Part shown: positions 1,113-24,120 of the stretch, piece after piece
Layout: every line of letters begins with the position of its first letter
Numbering within the stretch: the first letter of the stretch is position 1
Virus record (IMG/VR): IMGVR_UViG_3300034196_000270
Coordinates: 1-24,120 of that record
Source of the DNA: a virus
Length of the DNA stretch: 24,120 nucleotides
Direction: 5' to 3' (one strand)
The notes under the pieces: generated by a model
Database searches by the model: none
Told to the model about the DNA's origin: nothing
The model's input: the letters and a program-made list of their open reading frames with translations, nothing else
Position numbers and translations under genes: made by a program

Positions 1113-1128
1113 TGGGGTTGTCTCTTAG

Positions 1129-1698: not shown

Positions 1699-1701
1699 TA
1701 G

Positions 1702-2362: not shown

Positions 2363-2394
2363 AAGAATGTTCCTGCTTAAAAACAAAACTGAAT

Positions 2395-2420
2395 AAAAAA
2401 GGGCTATCGTTTGATAGCCC
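2395..2420 (-). terminator. Rho-independent terminator between capsid and decoration genes
   Basis: On the minus strand an 8-bp perfect stem (GGGCTATC with GATAGCCC, 4-base loop, 2401-2420) is followed directly by six T residues (2400-2395). It lies 23 bases past the stop of the protease/capsid gene, inside the structural operon. It may trim transcription after the capsid gene, or be overcome by Q-type antitermination. Confidence 0.75.
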
Positions 2421-2442
2421 ATTTATGTCGGTTTAGCGCTGT

Positions 2443-4509: not shown

Positions 4510-5992
4510 TGTTAGGATCTCCTAGCGAGGGGTCGGGGTCATTGGCCGTGACCATGTTGTTTTCGCGGTTGTAATCCACCTCACGCTTACGCTGGCGTTT
4601 TACTTCTGCAGGATTACGGCCACGGGCGCGAGTCCAATCGGCTTCGGTTGCGACGTTGGCAGCGATCATCATTTCCCAGCCTTCGGCCTCTTTGCGTGGG
4701 TCAATCCATGGCATGGTGGGCCCGTAGTACACGGCATCAAATAAGGTGCGCATGTCGAGATCAGGCGGTAGCACTAATGGGTCCTGCTTGTTGTGCATTT
4801 CCATTTTGAGAAAATTGCGGAATACAGGCCGCGACCAGCCAGCACAAAACCACTGCTGCATAATGCGGTTGGATTCGTCTTGCTCAACCAGCTCTTGGCG
4901 CTGGCTTGAATAACTGCCTTTGTAGTCACGGGCAATGCTGGAATAGCTGCCACGGGTACCAGCTGCGGCGGCTTTTAATTGGCCGTTACGAAAATCAACT
5001 AAGTGCACATTAGGGCGGTTTGATTCAATCATGCCCACATCTTCACCGGGCTTGAGATCATCGAAGGTCATGCCAGGTGCAATGGGGATTTCGCGGCTTG
5101 ACGATTCACCACTTGAGTCAGGAACAAACATGGCGGCATCGCCGCGCTTGATGTAGAACGCCAGCGCGGCTGCAATCCTTGCCGCTACTCGCTCAGATTC
5201 CTCATAGTCTTTAATATCGCCAAGGCGGGTTAAAATGCCGTGGAATAACGAAGCGCCACGCAGCTGGTGCAAGCGTTTAAATAAGCCTAAGTGCATCATG
5301 CTCGATGCGGGTATCACTTTGGTTTTGTAGCGAAAGCCGACTTGATCCGCAGGGTGATCAAGCAATACGTGATAGTTAACCACTTGGCCCCAGCTGTTTA
5401 TCTCTAACCCTTGGCGTACCCGCTTTGCTGGTTCGTTTAACTCGTAGGGGATAAAGTCGGCTTCTAAGGCTTCAATACTGTATTGAGTGCCTTGCTCATT
5501 TGGGTGGCCGAACTTAGCCACTTTACCCATCACATGCTGGCCGAACACATCACCATCACGCAGGGCGCTACGTAACACCAAGCGTTCTAATTCAGGGCGA
5601 CTAAAGCGGCCAGTAACGTCACACTTAAGCGACCATGCACCGAAACGGCGTTGAATATCGTTGGCTAAGTCATCAAGGATTTCACCGCTAATACTGCGCG
5701 GCTGCGGTTCGACCACAATCCCTTGGGCACCGATCACCCGTTCTTCCATGCGGTCGAGAATGCCAATGCTGAGATCATGATTTTCATCTAACCAGCGCGC
5801 TTGCTCACGCAGGCTTTTACCTGCCGCAAATACCGCTTGGTTGGCGCCGCGACTTTCCTTTTTAGCGCGATGCGTGCGGCTTGGGCTGGCGGCTTCATAC
5901 CCTTTCAGGTTGCGGTAGCTCATTGCGGCCGCTTCACGCTGTAATGCTAAACGCGGGGCAAATATCGCCAGCGCATCATTGATAATGCTCAT
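4418..5992 (-). CDS. Phage portal protein, lambda gpB family
   Basis: A 524-residue protein (lambda gpB is 533) beginning MSIINDALAIFAPRLALQRE. It carries hallmarks of the lambda-type portal family: an N-terminal YRNLKGYEAA segment, RSALRDGDVFGQHV near residue 145, and a C-terminal basic, charged tail ending RSAERARRNAEPE. It forms the dodecameric ring at one vertex through which the terminase pumps DNA and to which gpW and FII attach. It lies directly downstream of the gpW-like gene, and its 3' end overlaps the protease/capsid gene by 92 bases in another frame. Confidence 0.9.
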   Translation of the reverse strand: MSIINDALAIFAPRLALQREAAAMSYRNLKGYEAASPSRTHRAKKESRGANQAVFAAGKSLREQARWLDENHDLSIGILDRMEERVIGAQGIVVEPQPRSISGEILDDLANDIQRRFGAWSLKCDVTGRFSRPELERLVLRSALRDGDVFGQHVMGKVAKFGHPNEQGTQYSIEALEADFIPYELNEPAKRVRQGLEINSWGQVVNYHVLLDHPADQVGFRYKTKVIPASSMMHLGLFKRLHQLRGASLFHGILTRLGDIKDYEESERVAARIAAALAFYIKRGDAAMFVPDSSGESSSREIPIAPGMTFDDLKPGEDVGMIESNRPNVHLVDFRNGQLKAAAAGTRGSYSSIARDYKGSYSSQRQELVEQDESNRIMQQWFCAGWSRPVFRNFLKMEMHNKQDPLVLPPDLDMRTLFDAVYYGPTMPWIDPRKEAEGWEMMIAANVATEADWTRARGRNPAEVKRQRKREVDYNRENNMVTANDPDPSLGDPNSEKDPNSISNAKRNAAKRSAERARRNAEPE

Positions 5993-6041
5993 GTGTTGCT
6001 CCGACTTATATTTTTAGACATGCCCTATTAATGCGGCTTGA

Positions 6042-6248
6042 TTAGTTAAAGCTGGCTAACTTGACGCCACCCTGTGGGCGGCTAAAGGCATTTAAACGGC
6101 GCTCCCATTCGAGGCGACCTTTGCGGATTTCGCCTAGGTCCTCTGTGGTCATTGTTTTGCCGTTGATCGTGGTTTGCTTGCCTGCCAACACATCAAGCTC
6201 AGCATTAAAGTACGCATCGATCATCTGTTGGCATTGGGTTTTGGTCAT
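6042..6248 (-). CDS. Head-tail connector gpW-like
   Basis: Exactly 68 residues, the length of lambda gpW, and in the same slot between the large terminase and the portal. It starts MTKTQCQQMIDAYFNAELDV, has a short helix-hairpin-helix character and contains NGKTMTTEDLGEIRKGRLEWERRL, typical of the gpW family. The protein plugs the portal after packaging so that FII and the tail can bind. ATG at 6246-6248. Confidence 0.88.
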   Translation of the reverse strand: MTKTQCQQMIDAYFNAELDVLAGKQTTINGKTMTTEDLGEIRKGRLEWERRLNAFSRPQGGVKLASFN

Positions 6249-6276
6249 GCTGTTATCCTTGGCTTTATGGCATTAA

Positions 6277-8274
6277 CTACAGCCAACCGCCAGAACTGCC
6301 ACCACCGCCACCGTTTAGGTAAGCAGCATTCGCATTGGCCTGTTTTGCGGCTTTGGGTTTAGGTTCTTTGGGTTGGTCGCTTGATATGGCTATCGGGGTA
6401 ACTTGTGAAAGTTTGTCGAGGTTAATGCCGAATTTCTCAATCGCGATATACAGCGCAGCGAGTGCGTAAACGAAACAATCTAGTGCCTCGTTGCGGCGCT
6501 TTTGGTTGTCCCATTTATAGATGATCCGTCCGTTTTGGCGCACTGGCACCTTGCGTTCACTGGTGAGCTGTTGCAGCTCAACGTCATCACATACCGCTTC
6601 GTTGAGCGGAAAGTGAATCGCACCAGGTTTGCGCACATCCACATCAGGGGCAATCCGCAACATCGACATCAACAACTCTTTGGCGTTGTCGGTACCGACC
6701 TCCGTTAAGTACACGCCTTTGGCGGTTCGCTTACGGGGGAAGTTGGCGATCGGCTTGCCGTAAACGTTGGCACCTCTAATGGGTATAACCCGCATTAGTC
6801 CAAGCTTTTTACTCATGGCGTAAACGTCATCGGTATAGTGGCCGCCTGAGTCCCAACCCACTACGCCAATATTGAGCACAACACCATCGGCACGGGCATA
6901 GCTTTGCGCAATACGCTCAGCCACTTTGTCTTTAAGAACTTGATCAGCGGGATCACCATGGAGAATAAAGCGGTCAATTAGCGCCGCCTCTTTACCCGCA
7001 CCCCAACCCCAAACACGGCCTTCGTAACGGTTATCTTGGGTGTCGATGCCGCAAGTTAAATACACCACCCAGTTAGGCACTTTGCCACTCGGGTACATTT
7101 CGCGGCGCTTAGCTAATTCTTCCCACTCTAAGCGTTCGCCGTTGTCGTTATCCCACGGTTGGCCTAACTTAGTGTTGACGAAAGTCTGCAGCTTTTCTTT
7201 ATCGCCTTTGGCTTTAAAGAACTCAGTAACCAGTTTCGCCCAGCTGTTGAGCGAGTTATAGGCCGACCAGATATGAATCGAGATATTGGGCGGCGTGGTG
7301 ATGTCGTTTCCGTCGGCATCATAAAAATCTAAAAAGTCTTTAGTGCGGATGCCGGTGTTTTCGCATATCCAAACTGCGCTTGGGTGCAGTTCCATATCAT
7401 CGAGCTGATTGTTTTCGATACAGCAACCACAGTGCTCACACAGATAATAGGCTGTGCTTGGATCGTGCTCGCCCTTGGCATTTTTATGCCACTTAATCCC
7501 AAAGGCTTCTTCGGGGCCGCCCCACTTTAAATCCTGCAGTTCGTCGCAGTGTGGGCAAGGTAAGTTGAACCTAAAATAGTGCGGTGATTCGCTGCAGGCT
7601 TTTTCAATCTGGCAGGTACCGAGCACTTTAGGCGTTGAACCGCGAATCGACTTAGGAAACATCGACAGTTCGATACGAGTATCACCGAGCGATGTGGCGT
7701 TACCTTCGTGCTCGATGGATTCATCAAAACCCGCTAGCTCATCGTAGATCACATCATCGGTGGAGATTTCGCGATAGTTAGCTGCAGCGGTACCACCGCG
7801 CACCATCAGCGTTTTGCCATTGGTGAATATTTTATCTTCTAGCGTGCTGTCTTTATGTTTGCGCCCCATCCAAGGTGCAAGCGCGCGCCAAACAGGGATG
7901 TCACGAATCGCCGTTTCAACGTGCTTTTTCATGAAGGTTTTGGCTTGACCATCACGAGGCTGATAGATCAACACGTTGCGCTTTTTGTGTTCAATCTTGT
8001 AAGCAGCGTTAGCCATCAGCATTTTGGTGTAACCGACACGCGCTGACTTCATTAAGTTAAGCGTGCTGATTTGGTCGTTACCCATGGCATTAAGAATGCC
8101 AATTTGAAACGGTAAACTTTCCCACTTACCCTCGGTGTAAGAGGACTCCGACGACATGTAAAAGTGCTCGTCGGCATATTCAGAACAGGTGAGCATGGGT
8201 GGGCGATAGAACGAACGCAGCCCAGCAGCAACGGCGGCTTTCAGATTTTTAATCTGCGCTGCCGATATACTCAT
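6277..8274 (-). CDS. Terminase large subunit, gpA family
   Basis: A 665-residue protein (lambda gpA is 641). The N-terminal ATPase has the variant Walker A loop KSARVGYTK and Walker B DDVIYDEL, followed by a cysteine-rich zinc module (CPHCDEL and CEHCGCC). The C-terminal nuclease half has GIDTQDNRYEGRVWGW and GWDSGGHYTDDVY with the expected acidic residues. The enzyme cuts concatemeric DNA at cos and drives packaging into the prohead through the portal. The C-terminus is glycine-rich. It overlaps the small subunit gene by 26 bases. Full motif set makes this one of the safest calls in the window. Confidence 0.95.
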   Translation of the reverse strand: MSISAAQIKNLKAAVAAGLRSFYRPPMLTCSEYADEHFYMSSESSYTEGKWESLPFQIGILNAMGNDQISTLNLMKSARVGYTKMLMANAAYKIEHKKRNVLIYQPRDGQAKTFMKKHVETAIRDIPVWRALAPWMGRKHKDSTLEDKIFTNGKTLMVRGGTAAANYREISTDDVIYDELAGFDESIEHEGNATSLGDTRIELSMFPKSIRGSTPKVLGTCQIEKACSESPHYFRFNLPCPHCDELQDLKWGGPEEAFGIKWHKNAKGEHDPSTAYYLCEHCGCCIENNQLDDMELHPSAVWICENTGIRTKDFLDFYDADGNDITTPPNISIHIWSAYNSLNSWAKLVTEFFKAKGDKEKLQTFVNTKLGQPWDNDNGERLEWEELAKRREMYPSGKVPNWVVYLTCGIDTQDNRYEGRVWGWGAGKEAALIDRFILHGDPADQVLKDKVAERIAQSYARADGVVLNIGVVGWDSGGHYTDDVYAMSKKLGLMRVIPIRGANVYGKPIANFPRKRTAKGVYLTEVGTDNAKELLMSMLRIAPDVDVRKPGAIHFPLNEAVCDDVELQQLTSERKVPVRQNGRIIYKWDNQKRRNEALDCFVYALAALYIAIEKFGINLDKLSQVTPIAISSDQPKEPKPKAAKQANANAAYLNGGGGGSSGGWL

Positions 8275-8791
8275 CTAATAAACCCTCAATGCCCTCCGCA
8301 AGATCGGCGGCGGTGTTTTGGCTTTTAATCACCTCCGCTTTGATAGCGTCGATTGTGCGTTCTGGAATGTCGGGGAATTTGCGTTTTACCCGTATATGTA
8401 TTTGATCAAGCACTGGGGCAATTTGCGCAGCAATGCGATTTAGCACAAAGGTGGCAAAGAGCACTTCGACCACTTCTTTACGGTCTTTTTCGTTTTTAAG
8501 CTCTTGACCGTCGGCTTGTGCTCTGGTTAAGCGCCAGCGTTCGAAGTCGATATTTGGCGCATCTGGATCATCTTCATCTGGTTTAGTGATGGTTTTTTTG
8601 CGCTCGTTGGCAAGTCTGTTACCCACCACATCGGCCATTTTGTATAAACACACGCGACCGAGCTTGCTGTGCACAGGCACGTCCCACTTATCAAACGCTT
8701 GGGTGCTGATCTCAAGGCTTTTGCATAGGTCGGTTTTACTCAGTAGAACAGGCTCGGGTGGTGATGGTTGAATGCGTGCCATGGTGTTCAT
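8249..8791 (-). CDS. Terminase small subunit, Nu1-like
   Basis: A 180-residue protein (lambda Nu1 is 181) immediately before the large terminase. Residues about 15-60 form a winged helix-turn-helix (LSKTDLCKSLEISTQAFDKW) expected to bind the cosB sites; a charged helical region and C-terminal segment would contact the large subunit. The frame begins MNTMARIQPS at 8791, with an alternative ATG at 8782. It overlaps the 3' end of the holin gene by 56 bases. In lambda cos lies just upstream of this gene; here the best cos candidate is about 2.6 kb away (near 11370). Confidence 0.85.
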   Translation of the reverse strand: MNTMARIQPSPPEPVLLSKTDLCKSLEISTQAFDKWDVPVHSKLGRVCLYKMADVVGNRLANERKKTITKPDEDDPDAPNIDFERWRLTRAQADGQELKNEKDRKEVVEVLFATFVLNRIAAQIAPVLDQIHIRVKRKFPDIPERTIDAIKAEVIKSQNTAADLAEGIEGLLDEYIGSAD

Positions 8792-9071
8792 CTACCTGTT
8801 TTAACAGTGCTGCTTTCAGCTGCATCTCCGCTCGGTGTAACTCTTGGGCGCGTAGTTCGTCCTTATCTGTTTGACGTTGCTCACGGCGGCGGCGCAACTC
8901 CTGATAAAAAACGTTGGCTAATAGGGTGACGAGCGCGAAGAATATCCCGAGCAAAATGGCGATTTCATTCAACGTAAACGCACCTCCAATTGTGCTCATG
9001 AGCGACGATACATAAGCGCTAAACGTCAGCGATTTTTGAGTGGTCACATCATTAATGTATGGATTGTTCAT
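8736..9071 (-). CDS. Holin-like small membrane protein
   Basis: From the ATG at 9071 the protein is 111 residues: a polar N-terminus, a hydrophobic segment (FTLNEIAILLGIFFALVTLL, about residues 32-52), then a highly basic stretch ELRRRREQRQ and a charged helical tail. One clear membrane span plus a basic cytoplasmic tail is typical of class II/III phage holins (HP1-like), which time lysis. The 5' end overlaps the stop of the Rz1-like gene at 9052-9054 and the 3' end overlaps the small terminase gene. The longer frame to 9119 lies inside Rz1 and is unlikely. The lysis context supports the call; the exact holin family is not certain. Confidence 0.7.
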   Translation of the reverse strand: MNNPYINDVTTQKSLTFSAYVSSLMSTIGGAFTLNEIAILLGIFFALVTLLANVFYQELRRRREQRQTDKDELRAQELHRAEMQLKAALLKQVDEHHGTHSTITTRACSTE

Positions 9072-9339
9072 GCTGTTTTTCCGTTCGCCATGTTTCGATG
9101 TTATGCAAATCGGTATCACACTTGGTGATCACGGCTAAAAGTTGAATGATGCAATCGGGCAGATCGGCATTAGCGTCTGAACTACATTCGGCTGGCAGGC
9201 ACTGGCTCATTAATGATTGCGGCGGTAACACATATTGGGTCTGCTTGGTGACTACGGTGCGCGCAATAGGCGACGTGCTTGAGCAGCCGCTTAACATCAT
9301 CAGGCACAGCAGTATTAGCCCAACTTCGGGTTTGTTCAT
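9052..9339 (-). CDS. o-spanin, Rz1-like lipoprotein
   Basis: A 95-residue protein with a signal sequence ending in a lipobox (LMMLSGC; lipidated Cys19), then a polar region with further cysteines. It starts inside the Rz-like gene in a different frame (158-base overlap), which is the classic Rz/Rz1 arrangement. The mature lipoprotein would sit in the outer membrane and pair with the i-spanin to fuse both membranes in the last step of lysis. Several extra cysteines suggest disulfide bonds. Lambda Rz1 is shorter (60 residues). Confidence 0.85.
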   Translation of the reverse strand: MNKPEVGLILLCLMMLSGCSSTSPIARTVVTKQTQYVLPPQSLMSQCLPAECSSDANADLPDCIIQLLAVITKCDTDLHNIETWRTEKQHEQSIH

Positions 9340-9685
9340 TAGCTGAGGTCCTTAGTTTTTTTATGGCGTCTCGCTGATCGGCCAGCTGGCGATCAATCTC
9401 GGCCTTGGCTTTAGCGGTTTGTTCATTGAGCGCTAAAGCAAAGGCGTAATCCTTAGCAAGCCTCTCACGTTCGATGGCCTGCGCTTGCAGTTCATCTGTA
9501 ACAACCGTGAGATCATCTTGCAGAATGCGCTGGTTAACGGCGGCGGTTTCTAGCTGCGAGTTTTTTAACGCGAGGTCAGCTTTAACGGCGGTGAGGCTAA
9601 GGCCAAGTAGCGTTATCACTATGATGAGCGCTGCGATTAAATACAGGTACAGCGAGCCCGTGGCATTAATGATTTTGTTCCACAT
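9182..9685 (-). CDS. i-spanin, Rz-like
   Basis: A 167-residue protein with one N-terminal membrane span (LYLYLIAALIIVITLLGLSL, about residues 13-32) followed by a long coiled-coil periplasmic domain rich in Ala, Glu, Gln and Lys (about 35-125). This is the topology of inner-membrane spanin subunits. The C-terminal part overlaps the start of Rz1. It lies directly downstream of the lysozyme gene, with its start inside the last codons of that gene. Confidence 0.85.
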   Translation of the reverse strand: MWNKIINATGSLYLYLIAALIIVITLLGLSLTAVKADLALKNSQLETAAVNQRILQDDLTVVTDELQAQAIERERLAKDYAFALALNEQTAKAKAEIDRQLADQRDAIKKLRTSANEQTRSWANTAVPDDVKRLLKHVAYCAHRSHQADPICVTAAIINEPVPASRM

Positions 9686-10199
9686 ATAAATCCTTTAAGC
9701 AGATTTTACGTTCTTTTTTGCGGCGTTCGACTAAGCCAGGCAACTTGATATCAGCGGCATAGACAAAACCATTACAGCCGTGTTTACCGCATGCATCGGT
9801 GAGCTGGTGACAAGCGGCCACCCTTTCTCCGCGCAGTAACAGCTTGCGCAAGGTGGAGGTTTGAAAGTTACCCGCACCAAAGTTGTAAATCAGACTGAGG
9901 TAAGCAGCGTGTTCACCTTCAGTAAGTTGCACCGGATACGTTAGCCGCCGCAGTTGGCGATCGGCTTTACCTAAATCCTTGGCGAACATGTCAATGCATT
10001 GCTGCTCGCTAAAAAACTGGTTTAGCTCAAGCTCGGTGCCAGTGTGCCCAAAGCAAGCGGTGATAATATCCACCGGATCAAGATAGGTGTGCAGAATGGG
10101 CTCGCCGTTCGGCGCTTCAGCGGGGGCAATCAAATTAGCCCCCGCCAGCGCGACAGCAGAAGAAAGCCCCAGTGCCATGAGCTTTTGCTTTAATGACAT
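9666..10199 (-). CDS. Phage lysozyme (GH24), SAR-endolysin type
   Basis: A 177-residue muramidase. The N-terminus has a weakly hydrophobic, Ala/Gly-rich segment (LMALGLSSAVALAGANLIA, residues 7-25), typical of signal-arrest-release endolysins held inactive at the inner membrane. The catalytic region shows TYLDPVDIITACFGHTG (Asp41, Thr47), then YNFGAGNFQTSTLRKLL. In P21-type enzymes the catalytic Glu lies nine residues before the Asp; here that position is Gly32 and the nearest Glu is Glu33 at eight, so the active-site loop is slightly shifted. It cleaves peptidoglycan and is first in the lysis cassette on the minus strand. Confidence 0.87.
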   Translation of the reverse strand: MSLKQKLMALGLSSAVALAGANLIAPAEAPNGEPILHTYLDPVDIITACFGHTGTELELNQFFSEQQCIDMFAKDLGKADRQLRRLTYPVQLTEGEHAAYLSLIYNFGAGNFQTSTLRKLLLRGERVAACHQLTDACGKHGCNGFVYAADIKLPGLVERRKKERKICLKDLYVEQNH

Positions 10200-12699: not shown

Positions 12700-13956
12700 T
12701 CACAGCCACCCACTCGCACCAAGGGTTTGAGCACTCCCAACTTTCGCAGACGATCTAGGGATTATCTCGGGCGCAACCTCACTAAAACCGAGCGAAATTA
12801 AATGCGCGTGATACGCATCAAGCGCACTCAACATACCCTTATCCAACGTCGAATGAACATAGGTACGCAAAAGCACAGGCAGGGCATGATTAAGCAACCG
12901 CTCACCCACCATAGTATCGACACCCATATCTTGGATAATCGTGCGGCAAAGCTTGCGCAGATCATGTGAGGTAAACTCTTTAAACCGAATCGTCTCACTC
13001 CAATAATGCGCAGTGCGCTGGCTAATAGCGCCCACATCACCCGCAAACAAAAACGCCCGCTTACCCACATTTTTAAGCTGCCACTGAAAATAATGATGAA
13101 TAAGCGCCTTAGCCGTAGGGGTTAACGGTAGCCGGTGCTCTTGGCGGTTCTTCGCGTTCGCCGCAGGAATAAACCAAAACTCACCCGCAAAATGCTCCCA
13201 TCGTGCCAAACGGGTTTCACCAATGCGCGTCCCAAACATCAGCATCAACATAAACAACATCGCCACCGGCATAAATGCATCCCGCAACGCCACAAACAAC
13301 GGCCCTAAGTCCGACTCCATCAACCGCGTATCAGGCTTAGGTGATAAGGTTAAACTCATCGTCACTCGATACCCCATCAGAGGATTAAGCAATAACAACC
13401 TAAAATCCGCCGCCAAACTCAACGCCCGCTTAAGCACATTCACACTCAAACGAATGTAATGCGGCGCATAACCCTCATTCAGCATCAGCTTCACCAACGC
13501 ACTATCCACCACCAAAAACGACAACTCAGCCAAGGCCACATCCCCCAACTTAGGCAACAACTGCTTACGCATAATCGACCTACAGTTATCGCGCCAGCTC
13601 GGGCTTAACGTCGTATTGCCATCCAAATAATCCCCATACCACAACAGCAAATAAGTCACAGTCGCAAACTCACCGCGCAACACATCCGCGCCCGCACTGC
13701 GCTTAGCCAGCATCACAGGTAAATCCGCTAAAAACGTCTTAATACACATACTCGGCCACACGCCTTGCTTCTTCCAAACCGTTTTATCGCCCTCATTAAT
13801 CACCAAATGCACGCTCGCCTTCGTCCTATCCGCCGTCGCCCGTAAACGCAGCTCAGGAAACTGCGGGTCCCTAAAATCCCGCGTCAAACCGCCACGTAAC
13901 CAACGGCGCAGCGCGGCATCGTTCAACTTACCAATCTCAACCCCGCTAGCAGCCAT
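12700..13956 (-). CDS. Tyrosine recombinase / integrase
   Basis: From the ATG at 13956 (AAGGGGG site upstream) the protein is 418 residues. The C-terminal catalytic domain has the full pentad: Arg in GTRIGE (about 244), Lys in NAKNRQEHRLPL (269), His/Arg in SHDLRK (331, 334), His in LLNH (357) and the nucleophile Tyr in LRTYVHS (366). The N-terminus looks like a P4-type arm-binding domain followed by a SAM-like core-binding domain. It could integrate or excise this phage, or resolve dimers. Its place inside the leftward replication operon, between the helicase loader and the regulators, is unusual: lambda int lies on the other early operon beside attP. The start overlaps the P-like gene. Confidence 0.88.
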   Translation of the reverse strand: MAASGVEIGKLNDAALRRWLRGGLTRDFRDPQFPELRLRATADRTKASVHLVINEGDKTVWKKQGVWPSMCIKTFLADLPVMLAKRSAGADVLRGEFATVTYLLLWYGDYLDGNTTLSPSWRDNCRSIMRKQLLPKLGDVALAELSFLVVDSALVKLMLNEGYAPHYIRLSVNVLKRALSLAADFRLLLLNPLMGYRVTMSLTLSPKPDTRLMESDLGPLFVALRDAFMPVAMLFMLMLMFGTRIGETRLARWEHFAGEFWFIPAANAKNRQEHRLPLTPTAKALIHHYFQWQLKNVGKRAFLFAGDVGAISQRTAHYWSETIRFKEFTSHDLRKLCRTIIQDMGVDTMVGERLLNHALPVLLRTYVHSTLDKGMLSALDAYHAHLISLGFSEVAPEIIPRSSAKVGSAQTLGASGWL

Positions 13957-14632
13957 CGTTTGCCCCCTTAAGCCCAAGGTTTGCCCGTAAATTAGCAATA
14001 ATCGATTTCGCCTTGGCCGCCTCAGTCGGCCGCGTCACCGTTTCAGGTAATGCCTTTGGCAACTCAACATCGGTCAACTCGCCACAGCTAAAGCGCCGAC
14101 ACAACACTTTGTAATTGCGCTCAAACGTCATTAACACGTCCTTTTCGAGCCCAGTCGCAAACATCCAACTGCCCGTCTCACGCACCGCTAAGCGCACCAC
14201 ATCATGGCTCCACGTATGCTTATCAGGGTGATGGTAATGGCGCGCAGCCTCCTTGAATGCCGCCTCTAACGTGGGCAGCCCTAAATCACAGGCCGTGGGT
14301 TGGCACCATAGCGCAAACTGGCGCGGTGTCGGCCAAAACTGCCTATCGCCCTGCTCGCGTCTCGCGCGATTTAGCCCCGCTTGCACTTGTTCGCGGCTCG
14401 CAATCCCTTGCGCCGCCAAGGTTTTAAGCCACTCACCTTTGTGGGTTGCTTCATCCTCCAGCCGTGGCGCACTCACAGGGAACAACACCCGCAACTTGCT
14501 AAACACGCTGTCCACAATCGCCATGTCCATTGCCGTGGGCTCGGGTTGCGTCACCCGTTCGCCCTGCCCAACCAGCGGCTGGCGGATTAAGGTCTGCAGT
14601 GATTTCATGCTCGCATTTTGGTTGGCCGTCAT
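13946..14632 (-). CDS. Replication protein P-like helicase loader
   Basis: A 228-residue protein (lambda P is 233) directly downstream of the O-like gene, coupled by an ATGA overlap. It contains FPVSAPRLEDEATHKGEWL, then ARREQGDRQFWPTPRQFALW and YHHPDKHTWSHDVVRLAVRE, which I recognise as the conserved core of the lambda P family. It would capture the host DnaB helicase and deliver it to the origin inside the O gene. The C-terminal 50 residues are variable. Confidence 0.85.
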   Translation of the reverse strand: MTANQNASMKSLQTLIRQPLVGQGERVTQPEPTAMDMAIVDSVFSKLRVLFPVSAPRLEDEATHKGEWLKTLAAQGIASREQVQAGLNRARREQGDRQFWPTPRQFALWCQPTACDLGLPTLEAAFKEAARHYHHPDKHTWSHDVVRLAVRETGSWMFATGLEKDVLMTFERNYKVLCRRFSCGELTDVELPKALPETVTRPTEAAKAKSIIANLRANLGLKGANDGC

Positions 14633-17235: not shown

Positions 17236-17242
17236 ATGTCAA
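17214..17242 (-). promoter_or_regulatory. pR-like promoter for Cro and the early leftward operon
   Basis: Minus strand TTGACA (17242-17237, perfect), 17-base spacer, TATTGT (17219-17214). The -35 overlaps the first codons of CI. Operators lie in and next to the core promoter. Confidence 0.78.
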
Positions 17243-17958
17243 CAAAAGATAAGATCACTTACATGAAAACACTCGGTCAGCGCATACGCGAAAAGCGTAA
17301 AGAATTAGGTATCACCCAAAAAGCACTTGGTGCTTTAGTTGGGGTTTCTGCTGTTGCAGTAACTCAGTGGGAAAAAGATGAGACAGCCCCAAAGGGCGCA
17401 AATTTATTTGCTTTAGCGAAATCATTGAAATGTGATCTCAGCTGGCTTCTAAATGGACAAGTCGCTGCGAAACCTGAGTCGAATGCTGAATGGGCTGGCG
17501 GTTTTGATCTATGGGACAACGATAGTCCACTGGGTGATGATGAGGTTGAAATCCCCTTTTACGTGGATATCGAACTCTCAGCGGGCGAAGGCATTGCAGA
17601 AGGTGTTGAGTATAAAGGTCCTAAGCTACGCTTTGCCAAAAGCAGCCTTAAGCGCCAAGGCGTAAACACGGATCGTGCTGCCTGTGTCAAAGTGAATGGC
17701 AACAGCATGGAGCCCGTATTACCCCACGGTTCAACTGTGGGTGTCGATACCTCAGCCACCGAAATCGTTGACGGTAAAATGTATGCCATTAACCACGATG
17801 GCATGATGCGCGTCAAAATGCTCTATAAACTCCCCGGCGGCGGCTTGCGTCTGCGTAGCTACAACACCGATGAGTGGCCAGACGAGCACATCAATAACGA
17901 ACAACTGAAAAACATTAAAGTGATTGGCAAGGTATTTTGGTATTCAGTTCTAGTTTAG
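17236..17958 (+). CDS. CI-type repressor with LexA-like S24 self-cleavage domain
   Basis: A 240-residue protein (lambda CI is 237). Residues 13-72 are an XRE helix-turn-helix (GITQKALGALVGVSAVAVTQW). The C-terminal domain has the cleavage dipeptide Ala116-Gly117 in ELSAGEG, the catalytic Ser157 in NGNSMEP and Lys194 in MMRVKML, so RecA-stimulated self-cleavage and SOS induction are expected. AAGGA five bases upstream supports the ATG at 17236. It keeps the prophage silent by binding the palindromes at 17202-17235 and, by inference, 20984-21022. Confidence 0.93.
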   Translation: MSTKDKITYMKTLGQRIREKRKELGITQKALGALVGVSAVAVTQWEKDETAPKGANLFALAKSLKCDLSWLLNGQVAAKPESNAEWAGGFDLWDNDSPLGDDEVEIPFYVDIELSAGEGIAEGVEYKGPKLRFAKSSLKRQGVNTDRAACVKVNGNSMEPVLPHGSTVGVDTSATEIVDGKMYAINHDGMMRVKMLYKLPGGGLRLRSYNTDEWPDEHINNEQLKNIKVIGKVFWYSVLV

Positions 17959-17995
17959 AAAATGTACTAGATAAATAGCTCTTATATTTCCTAAC

Positions 17996-18039
17996 AACCT
18001 CAATATTTAAAACATTAGCTCTAGCTATTGAGGTTCGTT
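17996..18039 (+). terminator. Stem-loop after CI, possible terminator
   Basis: AACCTCAATA (17996-18005) pairs perfectly with TATTGAGGTT (18026-18035) around a 20-base loop, then CGTTTT. The stem is AT-rich and the T tract short, so termination would be weak. It separates CI from the convergent PIN-domain gene. The rest of 17959-18137 is AT-rich with no gene. Confidence 0.4.
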
Positions 18040-18137
18040 TTAGGAGTTAAATAACTCTATAAAAAAGTAATACACTAGTAAAAATAATAAAATTTAGCTG
18101 GAAGAAGTAAGGCACAATAAACTGATTTTATTTATCG

Positions 18138-19532
18138 TTAGGCGAACTCACCATCATCATCTTCATCATTTTCATCATTTTCATCATTTTCATTGTTTAA
18201 ATTGTTTTCATCAATATCACCTACAACCTCATCTAACCGCTCTAAAAGCTTATCTAAATCGTTATTTTTATTTAAATCATTACGAATATTAAAGTATTCA
18301 TATAATGCCATTATTCTACTCCCATGCTCATCTAGTCGTAATTCTTTAGCTATATCATGATCATGCTGTTTCTGAATTTCAATCTTATTTAACATGTCTA
18401 TATATTCTGAAATGCTTGTAGGCTGACTGATACCTCGTTTAGACTTAGGAAAAAAACGATTATTATTACTTTTTTCAATGCTGTCCCAATAACTAGATAT
18501 AGCTCCCCCATATTTGGAGTTGGTATATAAATTTTCGAGATTCGAACCCGCTGAAGCAACAGTTCTAAATTTAAAATGCAACTTCCGGTCCACATTTGAT
18601 GTTTTTGCATCTATAATTGAATTTTTATCAACATCAACAGCCATATACGCTTTGCCATCTTCCATAAACATAGACGTGCTATACATATGAAATGCTGTAA
18701 TATTTGATTTTGAATATATTTCAGCTTGCAACTCTGCTAAAGGCCCGACAACTTTATTACCGTTTGAATTTATTTTATACCACCAATCATCTTTAGCATC
18801 ATCGGTCACAAAAATAACATTTTCAATATCATTTTCATTTGCCTTTTCAATCAACTGTTTCCAAATGATTAAATCTCCATACTGTCTTTCATAGTTCAAA
18901 CCATCATAATAGAAATGAGTTTCTTCTTCTTTTTTGGATTTATCAAAATCCTTAAATCCTGGTGGGATTTTCTTCACAAATCGATCTGCCCCTTCCTTAT
19001 AGAGATTATCAAGCCAAGTTTGATCTTCTGGTTTATGTCCGACTTTACCTTCAAATAAATTATTAATTCTATCTCTAATCGAATCATGAGAACGAACACA
19101 AGGTTGTTGATTATTCCAATGCAAAACTGACTTTTTATAACTGTTGATGCTTTTGTTAATTTCTTTCTCCAATTTTTCAGTATTTTCAAATAGCTTTGGG
19201 AAACGACGTTTTAATGCTAACTTTTCAAAGTCACCTTTAAATACATTTTGAATTTTACTCAAATTACTATCTACATCATTAAAAATACTTTTCTCATTCT
19301 TAACAACAGTCAACCTTCTTCTTTGATATTCAAGACCTACATGATAAGGTATCCACAAATTATTAGAGATTGAATCCATAATCCTAAAGAAATCATCTCT
19401 GGTTTGTATGGCATATCCATATAAGTTAAGCAGTACATTTGTATCGAAAACAAAAAGTGTTTTATTATTTTTCCATATATTCTCTAACTCAGGCTGAGTT
19501 ATATTATGAAATCCTTTAAATGTTTTTTTCAT
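18138..19532 (-). CDS. PIN-like (PIN_8/DUF4935-type) nuclease, defence or exclusion candidate
   Basis: A 464-residue protein from the ATG at 19532 (AAGGG upstream). The N-terminal part is a PIN-like RNase fold: LFVFDTNVLLNLYGY (Asp30), WIPYHVGLEYQRRR (Glu68), YGDLIIWKQLIEKA (Asp220) and VIFVTDDAKDDWW (Asp244/245), a full set of acidic metal ligands with the long helical insertion typical of PIN_8. The C-terminus is helical and ends in an Asp/Glu/Asn repeat. Base composition is clearly more AT-rich than the phage genes, a sign of separate origin. It lies between the two repressor operator pairs, where lambda keeps rex, so expression in the lysogen and a role against other phages are inferred. 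Target RNA unknown. Confidence 0.78.
   Translation of the reverse strand: MKKTFKGFHNITQPELENIWKNNKTLFVFDTNVLLNLYGYAIQTRDDFFRIMDSISNNLWIPYHVGLEYQRRRLTVVKNEKSIFNDVDSNLSKIQNVFKGDFEKLALKRRFPKLFENTEKLEKEINKSINSYKKSVLHWNNQQPCVRSHDSIRDRINNLFEGKVGHKPEDQTWLDNLYKEGADRFVKKIPPGFKDFDKSKKEEETHFYYDGLNYERQYGDLIIWKQLIEKANENDIENVIFVTDDAKDDWWYKINSNGNKVVGPLAELQAEIYSKSNITAFHMYSTSMFMEDGKAYMAVDVDKNSIIDAKTSNVDRKLHFKFRTVASAGSNLENLYTNSKYGGAISSYWDSIEKSNNNRFFPKSKRGISQPTSISEYIDMLNKIEIQKQHDHDIAKELRLDEHGSRIMALYEYFNIRNDLNKNNDLDKLLERLDEVVGDIDENNLNNENDENDENDEDDDGEFA
18140..18198. repeat. Short tandem repeat in the acidic tail
   Basis: About three to four copies of a 9-base unit (TCATCATTT on the plus strand, near 18155-18192) encode repeated Asn-Asp-Glu triplets at the C-terminus of the PIN gene. 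The unit length is a multiple of three, so slippage would change tail length without shifting the frame. Confidence 0.6.
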
Positions 19533-19538
19533 ATACAC

Positions 19539-19853
19539 CCTTAATTAAAACGCAAGTTTCGTTAGCGCATTACACCACATTTAATAAACTATTAATTTAT
19601 CAATAAAATCAATATACTCCGACAAAAAACATCTTGCCATAGCCTTCCACCCTTTAACTTTCACATTACAAAATACTCTACACGTTTTTATACGATAATA
19701 ATTACAACTGTAAGTTATATGATTAAGAATCACATCAAATTTTTACTGCAATCACCATGATAATAAAATCAACCATAACCCTGAACTTCAACCTATTACT
19801 TTATATCATCACTGACTCAAAAAACCATCCATTACTAAATTAATATGTACTAA
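19539..19853. other. AT-rich intergenic region, no gene
   Basis: About 315 bases of strongly AT-rich sequence between the PIN gene start and the end of the zinc-ribbon gene. No open frame of note, no clear hairpin with T tract and no strong promoter. A weak promoter for the PIN gene (for example TGTAAT near 19570 on the minus strand) must lie here. Confidence 0.5.
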
Positions 19854-20819
19854 CTATTTTAATAAAAACAAAAAAATAATAACACCTATAACCCACCATA
19901 TTGCTGATGAACTACTCATTTTAGGACTTTTTACTTTTACTCTTTTAGGCAATGTTTCATCATGTTCAATACTTACATTAATTACGTGGTCTCGTTCTGA
20001 ATTAGATTTTACATCTTCACTTTCCCAACTTGGTTTAAACTCCCCAATTACGTATCTATTTATTTTTTTTATAATCGGTTTTATTCCAACAGCAACTTCT
20101 TTATAGTCACCATTTATTTCTTCAAAGCTTGTCCGATACTGCCAATTACTGTCAACTTTCGGATTGATACTATCAGGTAGTTTATCAATTGTTTCAATCA
20201 CTTGCTCCTTGTTAAGCGCTGGGCATAATTCGTTATCCTTCAATATAAGTTCAAGCTCATGCCTTATTCGTTTTTTGTCGAAGTGCCAAACGCCTGCGCC
20301 ATCAAATTCACCAAAATCAAGCCAACCACCACCCTATTCATTGATAGGCATGTTTAGTCTCTTACAACCCCAAATATTCGCTTCATATTCTTTATCACCA
20401 AAACAGAACTGCACAGGCTTATATGCCTTTTGCCTGTTTCTATAACAACCAACACCATGATAAATTAAATCTTTCTTAGTGGCAGCATGCCCGTTAATGA
20501 GTAGTTGAGACGACTTCCAGCTACCGACCAATTCAAAAAGATTGATTATCAATTCAACTTCAGTAATAGGTAAAGTAATCTTATGTTGAGCTTGCTTTCC
20601 TTCGCCAGAGATTGAGTAAGTTGGAATATTTTTGCATATATCTATAGCTTTACCGAAGTGTATAGAGGAACTTTCACCAAACTTAATATCAACATTTGCT
20701 ATATGTGAATCAGTAATAGGAACAATAACTCGATCCGCATCAGTGACAGGATCACCACACTGTGGGCAGAATTTTGCCCCCTCATTTATACCTGCACTGC
20801 ATTTGTCACATATCAACAT
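19854..20819 (-). pseudogene. Zinc-ribbon, tail-anchored membrane protein split by an in-frame amber codon
   Basis: Two open frames are really one: from the ATG at 20819 (AAAGGA upstream) the frame runs to a TAG at 20336-20334, then continues in the same frame without another stop to 19854. The N-terminus is a zinc ribbon (MLICDKCSAGINEGAKFCPQCG, Cys pairs at residues 4/7 and 19/22). The middle looks globular. The part after TAG begins GGGWLDFGEFDGAGVWHFDK and ends in a hydrophobic anchor (AIWWVIGVIIFLFLL). Full length would be about 321 codons with the stop at codon 162. A nonsense mutation is most likely; read-through or a deliberately short product cannot be excluded. Function unknown; place suggests immunity or exclusion. 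Confidence 0.7.
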
Positions 20820-20983
20820 TGGATTTGTTCCTTTAATCATTCTTTTATTCAACTTTACAGCGATACATTAAGAAACGGCTTACATAAATGGATAGCCAAA
20901 AATCTGTAAATTCTAGTTAGTTCAACCGCTTACTTCACTTTAACACTCGTTCAAAAAAGCATCAAAACAAAAACACCAAAAAT

Positions 20984-21022
20984 AAGTTAACTTTTTAATT
21001 GACGAAAAAGATAAGTTAACTT
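20984..21022. promoter_or_regulatory. oL operators: two perfect AAGTTAACTT palindromes
   Basis: AAGTTAACTT at 20984-20993 and 21013-21022, start-to-start 29 bases. They match the operator type beside CI (17202-17235). This links the rightward operon to the same repressor and fixes the outer limit of the immunity region. Confidence 0.72.
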
Positions 21023-21027
21023 ACCTT
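20999..21027 (+). promoter_or_regulatory. pL-like promoter of the rightward early operon
   Basis: TTGACG (20999-21004), 17-base spacer containing an operator, then TACCTT (21022-21027), a weak -10. Operator overlap suggests repression by CI. Start site about 21034. The rest of 20820-20983 shows no gene. Confidence 0.5.
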
Positions 21028-21058
21028 CTAACCTGTGCCCACTACCGAGGACAGGGAA

Positions 21059-21412
21059 ATGATTCTAGCGAAAGTTCACACCACACCTAAGCAACGCGAT
21101 GAGTTTCGTCTACTGGTTGCAATACGTTTTGCCTGCTTGATGGCGCTGGCCAAGGGCCACACTGACCCGATGGATTGCCCACGGGTGCAATCCCGATGCG
21201 CCGAACTGGTAAAGCATTTTGCCTATCACCACCCAAGCCCTGCGTTTTACCGCCAGTTCATCCGTCACACGGGCGAACTCGGGCTCAACTTCTGCCTGCG
21301 CTTCACTGAGCCCCAGCAAGGTTTGTACGGCAAGGTGATGGTGTGGCGTAACGAACAGGCGGCCACTAACGTGCATCCGCTGCAACTCACCCAAGCGGAG
21401 CAACCAACATGA
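21059..21412 (+). CDS. First gene of the rightward early operon, unknown function
   Basis: A 117-residue basic protein from the ATG at 21059 (AGGACAGGGA upstream); the longer GTG frame at 21035 would begin at the transcription start. It starts MILAKVHTTPKQRDEFRLLV. No family recognised. It occupies the slot of lambda N, but lacks an obvious arginine-rich N-terminal RNA-binding motif. Ends in ATGA overlap with the next gene. Confidence 0.68.
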   Translation: MILAKVHTTPKQRDEFRLLVAIRFACLMALAKGHTDPMDCPRVQSRCAELVKHFAYHHPSPAFYRQFIRHTGELGLNFCLRFTEPQQGLYGKVMVWRNEQAATNVHPLQLTQAEQPT

Positions 21413-21669
21413 ACGGCATCAACACCGCGTTTTTACTTATGGCCCAGTTCAACAAAGTGATAGTGCCACTGGATCAAATCAGCAAAGAGTATTTTGGCCT
21501 CGAACCGCGTACCGCGGCCAACTATGCCAAAGCCGGCCGCTTGCCCTTAGCCGCCTTTCGCACCAGTAACAGCAACAAAGCGCCTTGGATGGTCAATGTC
21601 ACCGACCTTGCCGAATACCTCGACAAGCAACGCGACGCCGCCAAACAAGATCAAATCAACTTAGCGTAA
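21409..21669 (+). CDS. PrtN-like pyocin activator family protein
   Basis: An 86-residue protein. FLLMAQFNKVIVPLDQISKEYFGL, then AKAGRLPLAAFRTSNSNKAPW and VTDLAEYLDKQRDAAK match what I recall of the PrtN (Pyocin_act_N) family: a short HTH-like protein that activates pyocin and some prophage genes by binding upstream boxes. It overlaps the preceding gene by ATGA. In this phage it could activate late genes or be a target of SOS control through CI. Confidence 0.75.
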   Translation: MNGINTAFLLMAQFNKVIVPLDQISKEYFGLEPRTAANYAKAGRLPLAAFRTSNSNKAPWMVNVTDLAEYLDKQRDAAKQDQINLA

Positions 21670-21694
21670 TCAGCGGCTCAGTGGGGAGGTATCT

Positions 21695-22042
21695 ATGTTT
21701 TTTGTTTACGGCGTGTCCATGACCTTAGCGAAAAATCAAGCGGCCAAGAAATGCAGCACCTCAGTCGGCGCGCACCCTAACCGCCGTCAACTGAGCCCCG
21801 ACGAGTACCAAGCTAAGTTGGATGATATGGCGAAGCACTTGTTTGAAACCATGAAGCCACAACGCCTGTCGCATTCGTTATCGACGCCTGCGCTGTGCCA
21901 GCAATACATCGTGTTAGCCATGACCCAAGAAGCCCACCGCGACGTGCATATTCGCTATCACAAGCTGTCGGACAAGGTGAACCCCAAAACCAAGAAACCC
22001 ATCATCAATCTGGTGGTGTTTAACGGCGAAGCCGCAGCTTAG
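21695..22042 (+). CDS. Hypothetical early phage protein
   Basis: A 115-residue protein, with GGGGAGG upstream of the ATG at 21695; a second ATG at 21719 would drop eight residues. It has a basic middle (KPQRLSHSLSTPALCQQYIVL, then HIRYHKLSDKVNPKTKKP). No family recognised. It is part of a compact operon of short genes and is likely a host-interaction or DNA-related accessory protein. Confidence 0.65.
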   Translation: MFFVYGVSMTLAKNQAAKKCSTSVGAHPNRRQLSPDEYQAKLDDMAKHLFETMKPQRLSHSLSTPALCQQYIVLAMTQEAHRDVHIRYHKLSDKVNPKTKKPIINLVVFNGEAAA

Positions 22043-22072
22043 CCCTGCTGATTCAAAAGGAAGGAATAGCGT

Positions 22073-22366
22073 ATGAACCACTTACTCCCAGGCTTTGAAT
22101 CACAAGAGCGCGTTGCGTTATTGCTATCGCTCACCCGCATTAGTTCGCCCGAGGTGATTGCCGCGTTAACGCTGCATTACACCAGCGCCCTGCCCGCCGA
22201 ACGCGCGGCCGCTCGCCACGGTATTGAACTGTCGAACTTTATGCGCGGGCAAAAGAAGCTAGAGCAAATCGCCGCCACGGTCGAGGCCATTAAAGCCATC
22301 GACTGGGCCAAGCTGCAATCAAACCCTTTGCTAACAAGCCCTTTGCAACCGAATCTGGTGGCCTAA
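22073..22366 (+). CDS. PapB/TrfB-like helix-turn-helix regulator
   Basis: A 97-residue protein; AAGGAAGGAA precedes the ATG. Residues about 12-66 (LLSLTRISSPEVIAALTLHY, then SALPAERAAARHGIELSNFM) follow the pattern of PapB/FaeA-type regulators: paired helices, with the recognition helix after an Arg-Ala-Ala turn. Such proteins bind AT-rich DNA and control phase-variable genes; related TrfB/KorA proteins are plasmid repressors. Family assignment is moderate. Stop codon directly abuts the next ATG. Confidence 0.55.
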   Translation: MNHLLPGFESQERVALLLSLTRISSPEVIAALTLHYTSALPAERAAARHGIELSNFMRGQKKLEQIAATVEAIKAIDWAKLQSNPLLTSPLQPNLVA

Positions 22367-22645
22367 ATGACTCAGTCAGCGGCGTTTCGCCATCTGTTAA
22401 ATCATTACCGCAGCCATAAGTTGAGCCTGTTACTCAAGGCAACAACGGGCGACAGCATCAAAATCGCGCTGGCGCTAGGCGCGTTAGATTGCCTGTACTG
22501 GCAAGCATTGGGCAACGGCTTAACCAACTTAGCCAAGGGCATTAGCCGCACCATAGTGTATTCGTACCGATATCACCCAATGCGCCTGTCCTGCCACCCG
22601 CCAGTCAGCCAAACCAGCGACAACCAAAACAAGGAGGCGGCATGA
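22367..22645 (+). CDS. Hypothetical early phage protein
   Basis: A 92-residue basic protein beginning MTQSAAFRHLLNHYRSHKLS, with a hydrophobic-looking but not clearly membrane-spanning middle (IKIALALGALDCLYWQALG). It starts immediately after the upstream stop and ends in an ATGA overlap with the next gene, so it is translationally coupled on both sides. No family recognised. Confidence 0.62.
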   Translation: MTQSAAFRHLLNHYRSHKLSLLLKATTGDSIKIALALGALDCLYWQALGNGLTNLAKGISRTIVYSYRYHPMRLSCHPPVSQTSDNQNKEAA

Positions 22646-22872
22646 ATACGTTTAGCACCAAAGATGGCGTGGTCACGCTATCTAAGCCCTACTCCACCTT
22701 GATGTGCGATCAGCAACAAATCGAAGTGAAGTACACCCCCAACAATTACCACGGCTGGGGCATTTGTAAGTCTTTTAACGCCATCGAGTGCAGCGACTTC
22801 GGCCAAGCCGACGCCGAAGTATTCGCACTCAACGCAGAATCAAAACTCAGGATAAAAGGAGAAGCAGCATGA
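22642..22872 (+). CDS. Hypothetical early phage protein
   Basis: A 76-residue protein starting MNTFSTKDGVVTLSKPYSTL with AAGGAGG upstream of the ATG. It reads as a small beta-rich fold with NNYHGWGICKSFN in the middle and two cysteines. ATGA overlaps at both ends link it to its neighbours. No family recognised. Confidence 0.62.
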   Translation: MNTFSTKDGVVTLSKPYSTLMCDQQQIEVKYTPNNYHGWGICKSFNAIECSDFGQADAEVFALNAESKLRIKGEAA

Positions 22873-23189
22873 ACCCAATACAAGCAGCAACAGTAGAACG
22901 TGAAGAAGGTTATTGGACCCATCCAGATTTGCCCGAGTGGGACGAAGGTGTGACCCGCGCAGAGTGTGAAGCATGGGCAGCCGAAAACGGTGGAGAGTTT
23001 GTGGCGATTTGGTTTGAACTCGATGCCACTGAACATCAGATCGAGCGCTACTTTGACGAGGGCGACACCGATATCAGCGATTGGCAACCCGTTTGCGACA
23101 AGGCCGGCTCATTCTTGCTAAGTATTCACGACACCGAAGATGGCCCCGTCGCGCTGTTCTTCGCGCCGAAGGACAGAGAGGTGGCGTGA
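22869..23189 (+). CDS. Acidic hypothetical early protein, last gene of operon
   Basis: A 106-residue, strongly acidic protein from the ATG at 22869, chosen because of the ATGA overlap and AAAGGAG upstream. It has HPDLPEWDEGVTRAECEAW and later YFDEGDTDISDWQPV. I recall related small proteins in other gammaproteobacterial prophages with no known role. Its acidity would suit a DNA-mimic or protein-binding inhibitor, but nothing proves that. It ends 8 bases before the hairpin at 23197-23237. Confidence 0.62.
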   Translation: MNPIQAATVEREEGYWTHPDLPEWDEGVTRAECEAWAAENGGEFVAIWFELDATEHQIERYFDEGDTDISDWQPVCDKAGSFLLSIHDTEDGPVALFFAPKDREVA

Positions 23190-23254
23190 CGTCCAAAGCA
23201 TCGCCCCTGCGAGGTCCTGCCCCACAGGGGCGATGCTGCCTTTGCTTGTTAAAT
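23190..23254. repeat. Partial attC-like half-site with 13-bp hairpin at the phage/cassette border
   Basis: AGCATCGCCCCTG (23197-23209) pairs with CAGGGGCGATGCT (23225-23237) around a 15-base loop. On the minus strand the next gene's stop is followed by ATTTAAC (23254-23248), which matches the attC R'' core RYYYAAC, then AAGC as in the complete site at 23579. No GTTRRRY core is found on the other side. It could be an attC whose far half was lost at the junction, or simply a terminator shared by two converging operons. Confidence 0.5.
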
Positions 23255-23256
23255 GC

Positions 23257-23580
23257 TTATACTTTGATGGTGCCATTGGACCACCCCTCTACTAGCTGGC
23301 CAATATTGGTTGCAACCTTTTGAAACCTACCCTCAATTGGATAGAAAGCCCAAACCCCAGGCTTATGGATACGGTAACAAAACTCAATACCATCAGCACC
23401 GGCATGACCAATAACCAAGTGCTGATGTTCATTGCTTATAGTGACATCAGTTAACGGAAGCACTAACTGCAAGAAAGACTGCTCATCATAATGGCCACCC
23501 TCGTACCTTGATAAGTACTCAGCGCAATCATAATTTTCATCTAAGAATCTCTTGGCAAACACTCTGATTCCTTGGGGCAT
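23257..23580 (-). CDS. Integron cassette protein, unknown function
   Basis: A 107-residue protein starting MPQGIRVFAKRFLDENYDCA. The ATG lies inside the attC core (GTTAAATG), so the gene begins at the recombination point, as many cassette genes do. The C-terminal half (HLVIGHAGADGIEFCYRI, GVWAFYPIEGRFQKVA) suggests an alpha/beta fold with some resemblance to SMI1/KNR4-type immunity proteins, but I would not assign it. It lacks an obvious ribosome site, as is common for cassettes. Confidence 0.72.
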   Translation of the reverse strand: MPQGIRVFAKRFLDENYDCAEYLSRYEGGHYDEQSFLQLVLPLTDVTISNEHQHLVIGHAGADGIEFCYRIHKPGVWAFYPIEGRFQKVATNIGQLVEGWSNGTIKV

Positions 23581-23681
23581 TTAACGCCCCAATAAGGGGC
23601 TGATAATGCTTGGCTAAACTGTGAAGCGGAGCGAAACTGAGCCAAGCTTTAGCAGTCCCGCACTTAATTGGCTTGTTAGGT
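23579..23681 (-). repeat. attC recombination site (103 bp)
   Basis: Read on the minus strand: ACCTAAC (RYYYAAC, 23681-23675) starts the site and GTTAAAT (GTTRRRY, 23585-23579) ends it. Between them a long imperfect palindrome folds: GGGACTGCTAAAGCTTGGCT pairs with AGCCAAGCATTATCAGCCCC, and the outer arms AACAAGCCAATTAAG and CTTATTGGGGCGTT pair with an unpaired extra base. Core boxes, orientation relative to the upstream lipoprotein stop and the downstream start are all as expected of an integron cassette junction. Confidence 0.88.
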
Positions 23682-23684
23682 GTA

Positions 23685-23987
23685 TTATTGCATGCACATT
23701 ATAGAATCCGAACTATAACTACCATGTTGTTTTTTATAATGTATTTCAAAGTTTTGACCACAAACATTACTATCTACAAAATTTTCACAGAAGAAATAAT
23801 CCCCGTCGTGATTTACATACCAATGCGTAATGTTTTTTTTATTTTTTGATTGCAATGACACTGGAATGTCTATCACCTTATTCCAACCGTTAAGATCAAA
23901 CTCACACCCTTTTGGTGGAGTTGATGAACAGCCAATTAAAACAAAAGAAAGTAATGATATTCGCCACACTCTAGATACACCTAACAT
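23685..23987 (-). CDS. Integron cassette lipoprotein, unknown function
   Basis: A 100-residue protein with a short basic signal segment and a lipobox (LLSFVLIGCSSTPPKG; lipidated Cys about residue 20), so it is probably anchored in a membrane facing the periplasm. The mature part has several cysteines (CEFD, FFCENF, NVCGQNF, IMCMQ) and aromatic residues. The ATG (23985-23987) overlaps a GTTAGGT core, and the stop is followed within four bases by the attC at 23681, the normal cassette structure. No family recognised. Confidence 0.72.
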   Translation of the reverse strand: MLGVSRVWRISLLSFVLIGCSSTPPKGCEFDLNGWNKVIDIPVSLQSKNKKNITHWYVNHDGDYFFCENFVDSNVCGQNFEIHYKKQHGSYSSDSIMCMQ

Positions 23988-24044
23988 GGAAGTGAGCGGC
24001 CTGCGCGGCTTTTCGCGCAGGTCCGCTCGACTGCAAGATTATGT
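23979..24044 (-). repeat. Degenerate attC-like site at the right end of the cassettes
   Basis: GTTAGGT (23985-23979, minus strand) is a perfect R' core next to the lipoprotein start. A GC-rich stem (GAGCGGCCTGCGCG at 23994-24007 with CGCGCAGGTCCGCTC at 24014-24028, one extra base) follows. The far end reads ACATAAT (minus strand, 24044-24038) where RYYYAAC is expected: 5 of 7. This may be a worn attC or part of attI. No intI is in the window. Positions 24045-24120 hold no supported gene. Confidence 0.5.
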
Positions 24045-24120
24045 TTCACGTTCACCGGAGCGCCTTTGCCTTGGCTTCAAAGCGAGCAGCAAGATCACTA
24101 TCGGTGGCACCAGCAGCTAA

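Follow-up and report, generated by a model that had tools for sequence, protein, structure and literature searches.

Integron gene cassettes beside the early operon of a Shewanella temperate phage

The early operon and the adjoining cassette array

We analysed a single 24,120-bp contig from IMG/VR, referred to here as the window. Late genes (tail protein, head protease/capsid, portal, terminase and endolysin; PHROGs) occupy positions 1–10199 on the minus strand, and a tyrosine recombinase of the replication region lies at 12700–13998, also on the minus strand. The recombinase matched PF00589 and phrog_1 only, with no match to TIGR02249, indicating that it is not an integron integrase. A CI-like repressor with HTH and S24 peptidase domains (domain search) is found at 17236–17958 on the plus strand, and the early operon, e1–e7, at 21035–23189 on the same strand. 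The presence of late genes, repressor, replication region and early operon, with a CII regulator alongside the CI-like regulator, identifies a temperate phage (PHROGs, Pfam). The interval between repressor and early operon (17959–21034) is the second of two variable slots in this phage family; it contains a PIN_8 gene and two small genes in the window, and an attI site with cassettes in four relatives. The PIN_8 gene (18138–19538; 466 aa, E 5e-66) had no PADLOC match and is possibly another defence moron. Apart from a short match to a replication gene, the phage and its cassettes had no match in INPHARED, and an Rfam search returned no match.

The last gene of the early operon, e7 (22869–23189, plus strand; phrog_1372), has 346 relatives among viral contigs and is the immediate flank of the array. 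Directly past its stop codon the genes run leftward, with attC sites between them. The gene of cassette 2 (23257–23580, minus strand) encodes 107 aa; the protein had no relatives in Pfam or NCBIfam, and its predicted structure was uninformative (pLDDT 40). The gene of cassette 1 (23685–23987, minus strand) is an open reading frame encoding 100 aa, probably a small lipoprotein, with a lipobox (LIGC) read by eye; the protein belongs to no family in Pfam, PADLOC or NCBIfam, and among viral contigs it was found only within this same array. Cassette 0 is represented by the 3' end of its gene (the last 22 codons, read from the sequence; 24052–24120, minus strand), which is cut by the end of the record, before the start of the array. 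The records of the window and of a close relative, G002, share their end point, which coincides with the stop codon of a predicted open reading frame; this fits trimming at a gene border and not a biological end.

To identify attC sites, we built a covariance model, R1, from 15 non-phage attCs, which came from chromosomal loci of Shewanella and from a plasmid with a class 1 integron; the window contributed none. A broader model, R2, was built from 28 sites, because R1 alone missed divergent attCs. A first-pass annotation had placed a 103-bp attC between two minus-strand genes and had proposed a covariance-model search; our own models, run on the 24-kb window, support this call. The site, attC_b of cassette 1 (23579–23681, minus strand; R'' ACCTAAC, R' GTTAAAT), is of the Shewanella type, scored 40.7 bits with R1 (E 2.7e-9) and 40.8 bits with R2, and was the sole R1 match in the window. 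Neither model found an attC in 39 control loci (585 kb) from non-Shewanella phages and prophages with an e7 relative. Pattern-based attC scans gave some background, and our attC calls therefore rest on the covariance models. Copies related to attC_b, mostly attC_b itself at about 70–95% identity, occur in 84 of 129 Shewanella genomes. As expected of an attC, the bottom strand of attC_b folded better as single-stranded DNA than the top strand (z -2.9 and -1.4, respectively, against shuffled sequences).

The sites on either side are more divergent. Upstream of cassette 1, attC_a (23979–24044, minus strand), which belongs to the preceding cassette 0, combines an R' box (GTTAGGT) and a degenerate R'' box (ACATAAT) with a long hairpin containing an unpaired A (z -4.6 to -5.2). 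Its R'' box is too divergent for the covariance models to have scored it; over 54 bp, the site is 96.3% identical to the attC of a class 1 integron cassette that lies beside intI1, blaGES-5 and aac(6')-Ib4 on a Citrobacter plasmid. The fit of the genes to the core sites that had been described earlier also holds, with the start codon of cassette 1 overlapping the R' box of attC_a. The terminal site, attC_c of cassette 2 (23184–23254, minus strand), has a good R'' box (ATTTAAC) and a perfect stem that lacks an unpaired base (hairpin z -5.4), and scored 4 bits. Only its 5' half is intact; its R' box (GTCACGC) is made by the last codons of e7 (GCGTGAC). The array directly adjoins e7, in agreement with its earlier placement against the 3' end of the early operon, and the e7 stop codon is likewise spanned by attC sites in two relatives, L005 and L010. 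The degeneracy of attC_c may mean that the last cassette has lost its mobility. Single-strand folding supported all three hairpins. The array therefore has at least two attCs, each after a cassette gene and in one orientation (attC_b by covariance model, attC_a by identity, and the degenerate attC_c), and the record contains no integron integrase, its sole tyrosine recombinase lacking a TIGR02249 match; this combination defines a CALIN, a complete integron requiring intI.

Cassette 2 also occurs in another context. Behind a chromosomal attI of another Shewanella species (genome G086), a homologue with 63% identity forms the second cassette, at a locus with host genes on both sides. The attC downstream of this homologue is genuine (27.8 bits, E 7e-4), and its 5' part matches attC_c. 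Judged from this relative, cassette 2 is a real mobile cassette. At the G086 locus (L298; G086:C1:3473212-3474460), the first of the two cassettes has an FRG-like motif, recognised by eye, and we found no intact intI in the genome.

Arrays and attI sites in related phages

We compared the window with relatives whose e7 is at least 80% identical, counting partial records. Cassette arrays were present in 10 of these 20 close-family records (the window, G002, G011, L005, L010, G010, L009, L017, L018 and G001), three of which are not independent, since the array of the window is also that of G002 and G011. All lie at one of two fixed places, either after e7 or between the repressor and the early operon. 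In L005 and L010, quite different cassettes start at the same base as in the window, the e7 stop codon. The two cassettes of L005 (L005:8318-10203) encode AbiGi (E 8e-56) and a member of the candidate defence family PDC-S42 (E 6e-120); an array led by attI in L018 (L018:2471-4590) includes the gene of a type II restriction enzyme (E 8e-38), next to one for a DNA methyltransferase that we identified from its motifs, and the cargo of L009 includes a GNAT acetyltransferase. In a further relative, an insertion sequence interrupts e7 (L011:8291).

The window and G002 are 97% identical across 10.6 kb. The cassette block is 99.8% identical between them (929 of 931 positions), as compared to 93.2% for the adjoining phage DNA (1034 of 1110; Fisher p 2e-18). 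Similarly, the block is 99.8% identical between the window and G011, as compared to 95.4% for the adjoining DNA (p 6e-8). The far greater similarity of the block indicates that it has a different recent history from its flank. The occurrence of identical cassettes in these three backbones can equally be explained by ordinary homologous recombination between phages.

We next consider attI (AAACGCRCATGCGCACTAA) in the family. In L009, L017, L018 and G001, the slot between repressor and early operon contains an attI of the Shewanella type, with one to about six cassettes behind it. With G010, where attI lies in the e7 slot, five family prophages carry an intact Shewanella attI, and none has an IntI within its record. 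Among 2.9 million viral contigs scanned, seven contain the attI motif, that of L292 in an unrelated sequence context, and none of the seven encodes IntI within the sequence of its contig. Matches to a relaxed attI pattern in L292 and L007 were ignored as unrelated sequence, as was a second match inside the intI–attI region of some integrons; G075, which has an attI beside a right-end gene and no early operon match, was not counted. Over about 110 bp, the attIs of the phages can be aligned with those located beside intI. For the four phages with an attI in the early slot, the 150 bp before the crossover point, G|TT, are 89–98% identical in every pair, and the 150 bp after it are at chance level. 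On sequence grounds, this break in identity is the signature of integrase-mediated insertion into attI.

Integron integrases are common in the potential hosts, with IntI above the cut-off in at least 77 of 129 Shewanella species genomes. Based on this frequency and on the attI signature, we consider it likely that the phage carries an integrase-less integron array that was loaded in trans by a host integrase. These Shewanella phages would thus probably borrow the integron enzyme of the host to gain new genes. In the proposed sequence of events, a lysogenised host would supply the integron integrase, which would act on a phage-borne attI; in the window this attI is presumed to lie just beyond the end of the record; in G010, an attI is present in the e7 slot. 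The loaded array would then be copied along with the phage genome, and could reach other phage backbones by recombination and new hosts by lysogeny. The cassette genes would be read towards the early operon, presumably from a promoter on the attI side or from promoters of their own. Neither G010 nor G011, the hosts with arrays at the e7 place, has an integron integrase above the cut-off, indicating that any loading happened elsewhere. The first-pass annotation had suggested that the phage carries cassettes and can move them. Several independent prophages bear out the first part of this suggestion; the second part applies conditionally, since neither the window nor the attI-bearing records encode IntI, and site-specific movement would need that of a host. 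A stronger proposal, which we advance tentatively, is that the phage lineage keeps attI as a reusable cargo port and, having no IntI of its own, may swap cassettes, including anti-phage defence genes, by means of the integrase of each host, ferrying them between hosts with and without integrons.

Alternatively, the cassettes could be a static moron, captured once by illegitimate recombination and then distributed by homologous recombination between related phages, with no involvement of an integron integrase. Consistent with such a history, a single array with an identical junction is common to the window, G002 and G011, its terminal attC is degenerate, the phage has no intI, and two hosts of array-bearing prophages also lack it. 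By contrast, other relatives have entirely different cassettes that begin at the same base of the e7 junction, and identity falls to chance exactly at the G|TT of the phage attI, which homologous recombination does not predict. We therefore regard a single capture as unlikely.

Position of the cassettes within prophages at dusA

In Shewanella genomes, sister prophages carry a tyrosine integrase at their left end. About 200 bp from this gene is a repeat, a second copy of which lies within the 5' part of dusA at the right end. We identified the dusA flank from its sequence and from a published description of dusA as a site at which prophages and islands are known to attach (PMC4482086), rather than by family search. 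The repeats that form attL and attR are 27 bp long in G025 and 87 bp long in G012, and the cassette region lies between them. Between e7 and attR, the sisters have a variable region followed by a conserved, leftward right-end gene, called DUF4124-like by resemblance and not by family search. The variable region of G010 consists of attI and three cassettes with attCs; that of G025 has one weakly supported cassette, with a marginal attC (17 bits, E 0.42). The dusA-type integrase is present in G002, G011, G010, G025 and G012, and in the window would fall outside the record. The tyrosine recombinase at 12700–13998 of the window is additional to this integrase, which the phage family has at its left end.

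For the window's own array the evidence on position is indirect, and comes from G011 (Shewanella hafniensis), where the same array (529 of 530 bases) is on a contig that continues the genome's only e7-type prophage. This prophage is split over contigs, with dusA attL through the repressor on C9 and the right-end gene with attR on C15; attL and attR are each present as a single copy. On our preferred reading, which includes the proposed loading in trans, the window corresponds to the right half of a temperate, siphophage-like prophage that integrates at dusA in the Shewanella baltica/hafniensis group, and its array likely lies inside the prophage and not in a host integron.

The first-pass annotation had offered, as one of two options, that the prophage entered an integron. 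If the prophage had inserted into a resident integron or CALIN, the cassettes would be host DNA beside attR; the record does end in cassettes, the attC boxes and a phage gene meet exactly, and attC sites have been reported on the flanks of a Vibrio prophage (PMC9892861). However, the attB of the family is dusA, and the cassettes, attI and right-end gene lie to the left of attR, with the cassette region between attL and attR in two genomes. Moreover, different cassettes and a dusA attL occur together in single prophages, and in the records of G002 and G008 the opposite end carries the dusA integrase. Insertion into an integron is therefore very unlikely, and the annotation's option finds no support. 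We give almost no credence to a reading without cassettes, in which chance hairpins or transcription terminators lie beside ordinary phage genes: the perfect stem of the terminal site could end the early operon transcript, but the E-value of attC_b (2.7e-9), its close homologues in 84 of 129 Shewanella genomes and the relative of cassette 2 beside a chromosomal attI all argue against it.

Relation to known integrons and phages

Integron cassettes are thought to spread mainly on plasmids and transposons that carry whole integrons. If our preferred reading, loading of phage-borne attI by a host integrase, is correct, a phage family that retains only attI and cassettes would provide a means of transfer for cassettes of sedentary chromosomal integrons, defence genes among them; this would account for cassettes in strains that lack an integrase, and would let phages change their cargo in modular fashion. 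Whether phages borrow the host integron would also become a question that can be tested with laboratory lysogens. The chromosomal integrons of Shewanella share the attC class and the attI, including about 110 bp of conserved sequence upstream of it; in them intI lies next to attI, whereas the phage copies lost intI or never had it.

Phage-borne CALINs have been published, including one in a Shewanella prophage with attI and intI, and attCs from other phages were recombined by IntI1 (Qi et al., 2023; PMC9892861). As in those CALINs, the window has attC cassettes in a phage genome with no adjacent integrase. The published cases are single and scattered, in virulent phages or cryptic prophages (Qi et al., 2023; PMC9892861), whereas here one temperate family repeatedly carries different arrays, in two fixed slots, with an intact attI in five members. 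The same Shewanella-type attI heads the CALIN of vB_SspM_M16-3 (MZ568829, Peduoviridae), a P2-like cryptic Shewanella prophage that encodes IntI; by contrast, the phage of the window has a different set of head and tail genes, belongs to a family found in dusA, and has no IntI that we could see. Known dusA prophages and islands are similar in having the integrase at one end and in inserting into the 5' end of dusA (PMC4482086), and the papers we searched contained no description of cassette cargo in them. As far as those papers show, it is new that arrays recur within a single family of dusA phages, that they occupy two fixed slots, and that attI occurs without intI.

Two further loci combine integron and phage sequences. 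In G025, a complete integron with intI, attI and more than 10 cassettes (L282; G025:C2:1639660-1651022) adjoins the half of a related prophage that comprises its early and replication genes, and is followed by a second attI-like stretch and UmuDC-like genes. We rejected this integron (intI at 1639660) as a case of one inside an intact prophage; late genes are missing on its other side, placing it beside a prophage remnant. A 10.9-kb viral contig, L295, contains two copies of attI (1174–1300 and 2826–3400), the second followed by a single cassette-like gene.
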